Position numbers and translations under genes: made by a program. This document shows, one piece after another, positions 9,421-18,007 of a stretch of 64,000 nt of DNA. The stretch spans positions 2,542,001 through 2,606,000 of the forward strand of contig NZ_CP090371.1 of the NCBI RefSeq assembly GCF_021431925.1, given 5' to 3'. The notes under the pieces are model-generated. The model saw nothing but the letters and a program-made list of their open reading frames with translations, did not search any database and was not told the DNA's origin. How positions within the stretch are numbered: the stretch's first letter is position 1; every line of letters begins with the position of its first letter. Source of the DNA: Halobaculum sp. CBA1158 (GTDB lineage Archaea; Halobacteriota; Halobacteria; Halobacteriales; Haloferacaceae).

Positions 9421-9699
9421 TCACTCGATGTCGACGTACTCCGACTCCCAGTCGCGTCGCGCCTCGATCTCGCGTCGTCCGCGGCGCGTGAGGGTGTAGT
9501 AGTTCGTCCGTCGGTCGCGCTGGCCCTTCTCGACGAGGCCCTTGTCGACGAGCGTGTCGAGGTTCGGGTACAGTCGCCCGTGGTGGATCTCCTTCTCGTA
9601 GTACTCCTCCAGTTCCTCCTTGATCGCCAGCCCGTGCGGCTCGTCCTGTCCCGCGATGACGTACAGCAAGTCTCGCTGGAACCCCGTCAGGTCGTACAT
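9421..9699 (-). CDS. PadR family transcriptional regulator
   Basis: A 92-residue winged-helix protein: helix-turn-helix IKEELEEYYEKEIHHGRLYP, then the wing and helix LVDKGLVEKGQRDRRTNYY. It corresponds to the N-terminal DNA-binding domain of PadR proteins, with a short C-terminal helix probably used for dimerisation; single-domain PadR proteins are common in haloarchaea. It converges on the AI-2E permease, and its targets are unknown. Upstream AT-rich sequence near 9733-9742 could supply the promoter. Confidence 0.88.
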   Translation of the reverse strand: MYDLTGFQRDLLYVIAGQDEPHGLAIKEELEEYYEKEIHHGRLYPNLDTLVDKGLVEKGQRDRRTNYYTLTRRGRREIEARRDWESEYVDIE

Positions 9700-9929: not shown

Positions 9930-10113
9930 GTCCTGTTCAGATCTGAGACGACCCAGGACCGATTCGAGTGACGGGGGACGGGTCGCGTGGCCGCCGCTGA
10001 CAGTCGTACGGGCGCGGCGTCGAGAACGAAAGGGGGCGCGCCGCGGAAAACACCCGCGGCGCGCCGCCCGAATCGGTCCCCGCTGACGCTTCGGCCCTCC
10101 AGACGAAGCGTCA
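9930..10113 (-). ncRNA. Candidate structured RNA, unassigned family
   Basis: Perfect inverted repeats nest into a plausible RNA fold. A 10-bp hairpin pairs 10084-10093 with 10104-10113. An 11-bp long-range helix pairs 9956-9966 with 10069-10079. It encloses a 12-bp hairpin (10035-10046 with 10054-10065, loop AAAACAC) and a 6-bp hairpin (9992-9997 with 10014-10019). A further 6-bp stem (9930-9935 with 9954-9959) surrounds the palindrome TCAGATCTGA and competes with part of the long helix. A minus-strand TATA-like TTTATTTCC (10134-10143) predicts a start at ~10113, hence the strand call. It does not match tRNA, SRP RNA or RNase P RNA signatures known to me. A DNA cruciform or 3' UTR structure is possible instead. 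Confidence 0.35.
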
Positions 10114-10133
10114 CCGTGACTTACCTCGGGATC

Positions 10134-10143
10134 GGAAATAAAG
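10134..10143 (-). promoter_or_regulatory. TATA-like box upstream of the structured element
   Basis: The minus-strand TTTATTTCC lies about 26 bp before the first base of the 10-bp hairpin at 10113. It is the same string as the TATA box of the aminotransferase gene at 6569-6577. It sits ~20 bp downstream of the stop of the 50-residue gene. Confidence 0.4.
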
Positions 10144-10164
10144 CTACCGGGGATCGGAACGACC

Positions 10165-10317
10165 CTACATGTGCTCCTCCTCCAACGCCCAGCCGAGCGC
10201 CCGCTTGTAGTGGGTGAACAGTTCGCGGACGCCCTCGTGTCGCATCTCCTCGGAGTCGAGCTGTTCGGCGAGGTACTCGTACTGCTCTCTGATCTCGGCT
10301 TCGTCGCGCACGGTCAC
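10165..10317 (-). CDS. 50-residue haloarchaeal protein of unknown function
   Basis: A GTG-started frame (10317-10315) encodes VTVRDEAEIREQYEYLAEQL and continues to LGWALEEEHM, 50 residues. The protein is highly charged and predicted helical throughout, with good third-position GC and acidic composition, unlike random frames. A second GTG at 10311 would drop two residues. It lies downstream of coxB on the same strand, ~110 bp away. Function is unknown; a small regulator or assembly factor is only speculation. Confidence 0.6.
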   Translation of the reverse strand: MTVRDEAEIREQYEYLAEQLDSEEMRHEGVRELFTHYKRALGWALEEEHM

Positions 10318-17588: not shown

Positions 17589-18007
17589 GATAATGAGTTC
17601 CTCAGAATTTGGTTGGCTGTTCCCCATTATCTCACATAGACCTGACATCCCGAATGCTAGATTTCCATCCACAGGATAGACCGGACCCAGAGCTGGAGCC
17701 ACTCCGGACACATTGGGAGAACAATCTACCCAGAACTTCAGATTCCGAAATACTGCTCATAATCCCGTTAGACCCTTGTGCGAAAAGCACGCTGAGTCTA
17801 ACGTTGGGTATGAGGCCTCGGCACTCATAGGGCTCCCCATCGCACCGGTGCCATCCGGGCTCGGAGCGGTCGCCTCGTCATCGGCCACCCCTACCTACCC
17901 GGTGGCGACGCAAGTGCGTTTCTCCTCGCGTGACCCGTCGCCGGCGACCCCGTCGTCGACCGCCGCGTCCGACAGTTATTGTACCTTCGGGCCTCACCCA
18001 CACACGA
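17589..18007. other. 419-bp gene-free region right of the cargo element
   Basis: The first ~230 bp keep the lower GC of the mobile island. The short open frame at 17609-17830 has no protein-like composition and is not called. High-GC chromosomal sequence resumes near 17830 and leads into the start at 18008. No integrase continuation, tRNA or attachment site is recognised. Confidence 0.5.

Follow-up and report, generated by a model that had tools for sequence, protein, structure and literature searches.

The window, a stretch of 64,000 nucleotides from Halobaculum sp. CBA1158, carries on its minus strand a small RNA gene adjoined by a cytochrome oxidase gene, with a short conserved reading frame upstream and a gene for a PadR-family regulator downstream. 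The features of the locus are listed below in window coordinates.

10165-10317, minus strand: conserved 50-aa open reading frame upstream of the RNA, an ancestral neighbour without Pfam family
10137-10149, minus strand: promoter, comprising a BRE-like CGGTAG (10149-10144) and a TATA box TTTATT (10142-10137)
10021-10115, minus strand: small RNA gene of about 95 nt, predicted 5' end near 10115 and predicted 3' end near 10021
10084-10113, minus strand: 5' hairpin of 10 bp, from TGACGCTTCG (10113-10104), the loop TCTGGAGGGC (10103-10094) and CGAAGCGTCA (10093-10084), based on alignments A1 and A2
10094-10101, minus strand: invariant loop UGGAGGGC, the same even in copies with a differing stem
10075-10083, minus strand: invariant linker GCGGGGACC, with one exception (L201)
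10032-10069, minus strand: GC-rich terminator-like hairpin, variable in sequence between species and constant in shape
10021-10031, minus strand: U/C-rich tail with the predicted 3' end; 88 of 125 relatives have a pyrimidine run close to the end of the stem
9956-9966 with 10069-10079: 11-bp outer helix of the original prediction, not part of the RNA
9421-9699, minus strand: PadR-family regulator (Pfam PF03551), downstream on the RNA's strand

A DNA search of relatives limited conservation to about 10021-10113, with its peak at 10063-10113. All relatives share a common plan. In minus-strand orientation it runs: some three free bases, the stem strand TGACGCTTCG, a loop made of two to four variable bases and then TGGAGGGC, the stem strand CGAAGCGTCA, the linker GCGGGGACC, usually AATTCAGGGCGGCA, a strong hairpin whose sequence varies, and a pyrimidine-rich tail. 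The 96-nt minus-strand piece of the window that is common to relatives folds with a z-score of -5.5, matched by 0 of 200 shuffles, and a longer, 231-nt element folds modestly better than its shuffles (z of -2.7 on the minus strand and -3.5 on the plus strand).

The original prediction had drawn a multi-helix element over 9930-10113, in which the 11-bp helix enclosed a 12-bp and a 6-bp hairpin and was followed by a 10-bp hairpin. The 10-bp hairpin (10084-10093 with 10104-10113) and the 12-bp hairpin (inside 10032-10069) exist: the 5' hairpin, the terminator hairpin and the promoter are real parts of the gene. The outer helix is not part of the RNA; it would join a stretch within the conserved RNA to one well beyond the terminator. 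Its arms are perfect complements, yet 58 positions of this GC-rich window are the start of a perfect 11-bp inverted repeat whose arms lie within 160 nt, and in ten other Halobaculum loci the best partner matches 7-8 of 11 bases, no more than chance gives. The architecture first drawn is wrong, since its long-range helix is a species-specific chance pairing with one arm past the terminator. The half at 9930-10020 does not belong to the conserved RNA, and the 6-bp hairpin lies within this unconserved part. Relatives do conserve the stems of the RNA, although these are other stems than those drawn.

The TATA-like box proposed for the minus strand is present and rightly placed. In 125 relatives the promoter columns read C (91%), G (87%), A (92%), T (97%), T (96%) and A (93%), and of the 94 loci with a match to the box pattern, 86 have one fixed distance from box to hairpin. 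This pattern is the BRE/TATA layout of archaeal promoters and sets the start within a few bases of 10115. We infer transcription from the conserved promoter layout and its spacing; a promoter of its own at a fixed distance is what characterizes an independent small RNA gene. At the other end, the terminator-like hairpin has at least 9 pairs in 125 of 125 relatives, and the transcript would end at this GC-rich hairpin and its U/C-rich tail. Could the locus instead be a DNA element, that is, a mobile repeat or a protein-binding inverted repeat that does not act as RNA? Inverted repeats are indeed present and extra copies lie on plasmids. However, the promoter spacing is fixed, the locus is conserved, genomes hold one or two copies, and the invariant loop and linker are asymmetric; we regard a DNA element as extremely unlikely.

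The covariance model R1, which represents the 5' 58 nt of the RNA, scores the window copy at 72.9 bits (10116-10059) and matches 387 of 391 genomes of the class, or 375 of the 377 of good quality. The RNA occurs in all 79 genomes sampled from the window's family, usually in two copies, and mostly in one copy in other families. Named carriers include Haloferax, Haloarcula, Halorubrum, Natrinema, Halococcus, Haloquadratum and Actinarchaeum. When 393 genomes from across the phylum were sampled, the 80 that match R1 were all within the class, and none of the roughly 310 genomes from elsewhere in the phylum matched. In the class genomes that R1 did not match (families f2, f9 and f11), lenient searches returned only weak hits lacking GGAGGGC and GGGGACC. 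Because the named loci and the 125 representatives were picked by an exact or near-exact core, their core columns are invariant in part through the way they were chosen; the BLAST and model searches do not carry this bias. The exact core is absent from viral contigs, and viral spread was rejected.

The surroundings of the gene are more constant upstream than downstream. A small protein with the C-terminus LGWVLEEEHM or similar stands ahead of the RNA in 67 of 125 loci; in the window it is the 50-aa acidic protein, conserved across the class and without a Pfam match. On the downstream side we surveyed 99 loci and compared strands in 96: the next gene shares the RNA's strand in 48 and lies on the opposite one in 48, 24 of the latter being what we take, from its sequence, to be an amphi-Trp-domain protein. 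These contexts bear on a reading of the RNA as a leader, riboswitch or attenuator of padR, built from the 5' domain, the linker and the terminator. Such a layout of domain plus terminator does resemble an attenuator, and the window, like 29 of the 99 loci, has a PadR gene next in line on the RNA's strand. Yet the RNA has no consistent same-strand gene downstream, and second copies lie elsewhere. We conclude that it is not a leader because so many loci have an opposite-strand gene downstream and the rest vary; the varying contexts speak against padR in particular, and we hold a cis-acting role of this kind to be very unlikely. Protein coding was rejected too: the loop has two extra bases in 89 loci, three in 35 and four in 1, and such single-base changes between species would shift any reading frame.

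The stem is almost constant in the main copies, where pair counts are uninformative. Diverged copies carried by the Halorubrum lacusprofundi plasmid pHLAC01 and by genome G030 have the stems GCGCTCCG/CGGAGCG and GCGCTCTG/CAGAGCG and keep the loop and linker. In a 12-row alignment two stem pairs are changed on both sides, in three cells; 13 of 500 shuffles reach the count of pairs and 0 of 500 the count of cells. The covariation is modest but real, with compensatory changes in the predicted stem.

Several other copies have diverged further. Extra copies (L198; L199/L217 on pHLAC01; L200 and L056 in G030; L145/L209 in Halohasta; L218 on a Haloarcula plasmid), several of them plasmid-borne, keep the loop and linker and are altered in the stem, the upstream region or the terminator. 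The window's genome also holds a degenerate look-alike, TGGAGGGCCGACGCGTCACCGGGGACC, right after G-rich repeats (G000:C1:378690-378745, L011/L214), possibly a decayed copy. In L216 (G115:C31, about 924-1070), broken core pieces stand in tandem, GGAGGGCCGAAGCGTCAAC and then GGAGGGCCGAAGCGTCAGCGGGGACC, as if duplicated and decayed. A CTT insert in the loop of two Haloferax loci (L146 and L072) permits an alternative register, CGCUUUGG with CCGAAGCG around the loop AGGG, which is predicted to be slightly better and is absent from other species.

Does the RNA belong to a described family? It matches nothing in Rfam 15 at gathering score, and no paper searched contains the core sequence. As the original prediction had stated for tRNA, SRP RNA and RNase P, known families do not fit: the Rfam gathering scan and ARAGORN, run on the window, gave no match for these or for tmRNA. 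The sole Rfam match in the window is an sR-tMet C/D box guide RNA at 17814-17886 (minus strand). In the 125 relatives there is no C box (RUGAUGA), which C/D box guides carry together with a D box (CUGA). An ACA near the 3' end, which H/ACA guides have along with a pseudouridylation pocket, occurs in 3, with no Rfam match to such guides.

One copy has probably been reported as an individual transcript. Around the second Haloferax copy the order is an E1-alpha dehydrogenase gene, a 77-aa gene, a TrkA-type gene, a small gene of 78-80 aa, a DUF5813 gene, the RNA and a transducer gene. HVO_2209 is oadhA4 (PMC8305020) and HVO_2212 encodes 78 aa (PMC12850539); counting on from these two, the RNA falls between HVO_2213 and HVO_2214, the listed place of the sRNA hts10 (HVO_2213s, forward strand, 161 nt, H. 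volcanii CHR 2078656-2078816; PMC3956466). The Haloferax copy beside the chemotaxis-transducer gene is therefore probably hts10, an equivalence of locus by gene order and not by H. volcanii sequence. hts10 was seen by sequencing, predicted bioinformatically and reported in 18 other haloarchaeal genomes (PMC3956466). It resembles the second Haloferax copy in gene neighbourhood, in its forward strand and in its conservation in other haloarchaea, but its reported length is 161 nt against about 95 nt, and it was treated as one orphan sRNA; the papers examined describe no family, paralogue or class-wide conservation for it. What had been announced as an undescribed haloarchaeal RNA is thus a conserved minus-strand sRNA gene with a conserved promoter and no Rfam family, of which one copy was probably described as hts10.

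Two further H. volcanii transcripts are candidates for the family's RNA. A 111-nt intergenic sRNA is reported as the most abundant RNA in one dataset, above any mRNA (PMC5892119), and sRNA_61, also of 111 nt, shows high ribosome occupancy and no detectable protein (PMC12482152). Deletion of hts10 led to mild growth changes, with a longer lag and 87% yield on acetate and faster growth in 1.2 M NaCl (PMC3956466). The paralogue near fen1 (HVO_2873), which a gene count from there would place between HVO_2868 and HVO_2869, probably masks the phenotype of a single deletion in this species, where methods for single-gene deletion exist and the family can be tested directly.

The best explanation overall, which we favour with reasonable but far from full confidence, is a free-standing trans-acting sRNA whose working part is the invariant loop and linker. 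Comparison shows the gene to be a member of a class-wide haloarchaeal family, with its own archaeal promoter and a terminator formed by a GC-rich hairpin and a U/C-rich tail. The loop UGGAGGGC of the 5' hairpin and the single-stranded GCGGGGACC would do the work, and the 3' hairpin would be a replaceable terminator and stabiliser. Acting in trans, the RNA would present both of these G-rich, invariant stretches to a single conserved partner. Pairing with a C-rich RNA, with an effect on translation or RNA stability, seems slightly likelier than binding of a dedicated protein because the G-rich single-stranded stretches are kept while the stem is exchangeable. The two paralogues of the window's family, alike in core and different in flanks, may provide dosage or separate regulation.

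Which RNA could be the partner? Complementarity of the loop, linker and stem to rRNA, assessed by duplex folding against the 16S and 23S loci of the same genome, was almost always no better than that of shuffled segments; a single comparison, the 5' stem against the LSU locus, exceeded its eight shuffles, and its site lay in the flank outside the rRNA gene. Seed complements were not enriched around 656 ORF starts, in a comparison of low power. A more specific idea is that the GGAGG of the loop imitates a Shine-Dalgarno sequence by pairing to the end of 16S rRNA that carries the anti-SD. The 16S genes end in GGATCACCTCCA, whose CCTCCA is complementary to UGGAGG, and many sRNAs of H. volcanii are present on ribosomes yet not translated (PMC12482152). 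Such a contact would involve six base pairs only, however, the overall rRNA complementarity is that of shuffles, and covariation is uninformative as neither the rRNA nor the loop varies. A loop reaching the 16S 3' end is attractive but weakly supported, and we consider a ribosome-directed RNA unlikely.

With no RNA partner rising above the controls in rRNA or at gene starts, pairing is preferred over protein binding only by a narrow margin. A protein-bound housekeeping RNA, in the style of 6S or SRP RNA, would use the invariant hairpin and linker as the site of a dedicated protein or as part of a stable RNP, and pairing would not be its main job. The letters of loop, stem and linker are almost fixed over the class; a near-invariant stem is more than a plain antisense seed needs and suits a protein-bound RNA. 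The lack of an outstanding RNA partner points the same way, as does the abundance of the 111-nt sRNA, if this candidate is the family's RNA. On the other hand, the stem letters are open to change, as seen from the compensatory changes of plasmid-type copies, no conserved neighbour gene encodes an obvious partner, and the published single-deletion phenotypes are mild, with a paralogue remaining. We see protein binding as possible, at a probability well short of even.

The trans-acting sRNA that we prefer is of a kind already known, the intergenic archaeal sRNA with its own promoter. The novelty lies in the family, which spans the class, is nearly invariant, occurs in duplicate in one family of genomes, has plasmid-borne relatives and is missing from Rfam. 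Haloarchaeal sRNAs have been described as fast-evolving, and of 27 H. volcanii sRNA genes tested, 22 lacked a homologue elsewhere (PMC3956466); in this case an RNA core is nearly unchanged across the class, together with a promoter, a terminator and a paralogue. The RNA probably does an important job, because its core is almost unchanged in nearly every haloarchaeon and absent from the relatives examined.

Comparison with known systems shows partial likenesses. The best weak covariance match is Caulobacter CC1840 (RF01521), which covers the full length and both hairpins at 25.1 and 29.0 bits; with a gathering score of 50 it falls far short, and it hits both strands, so we rejected it as a GC-rich hairpin coincidence. 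CrfA was set aside in the same search as below threshold, on both strands or GC-driven. Sponge RNAs of the CsrB/RsmZ type present GGA in a hairpin loop, as this RNA does, but with many loops per molecule where the haloarchaeal RNA has one. CsrA itself is absent from H. volcanii (PMC6104027). The ribosome-associated haloarchaeal sRNAs s194, Hts4 and IG1.7 are likewise small and intergenic with defined ends (PMC6104027); they have no known sequence in common with our RNA, and BLAST found no copy of s194 in other haloarchaeal genomes (PMC3956466). It is conceivable, though we would not count on it, that the family is a near-essential housekeeping RNA of haloarchaea, whose fixed G-rich hairpin acts on translation or transcription. 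It would then have been overlooked because work on haloarchaeal sRNAs stressed their poor conservation, and its standing would be comparable to that of 6S or tmRNA in bacteria.
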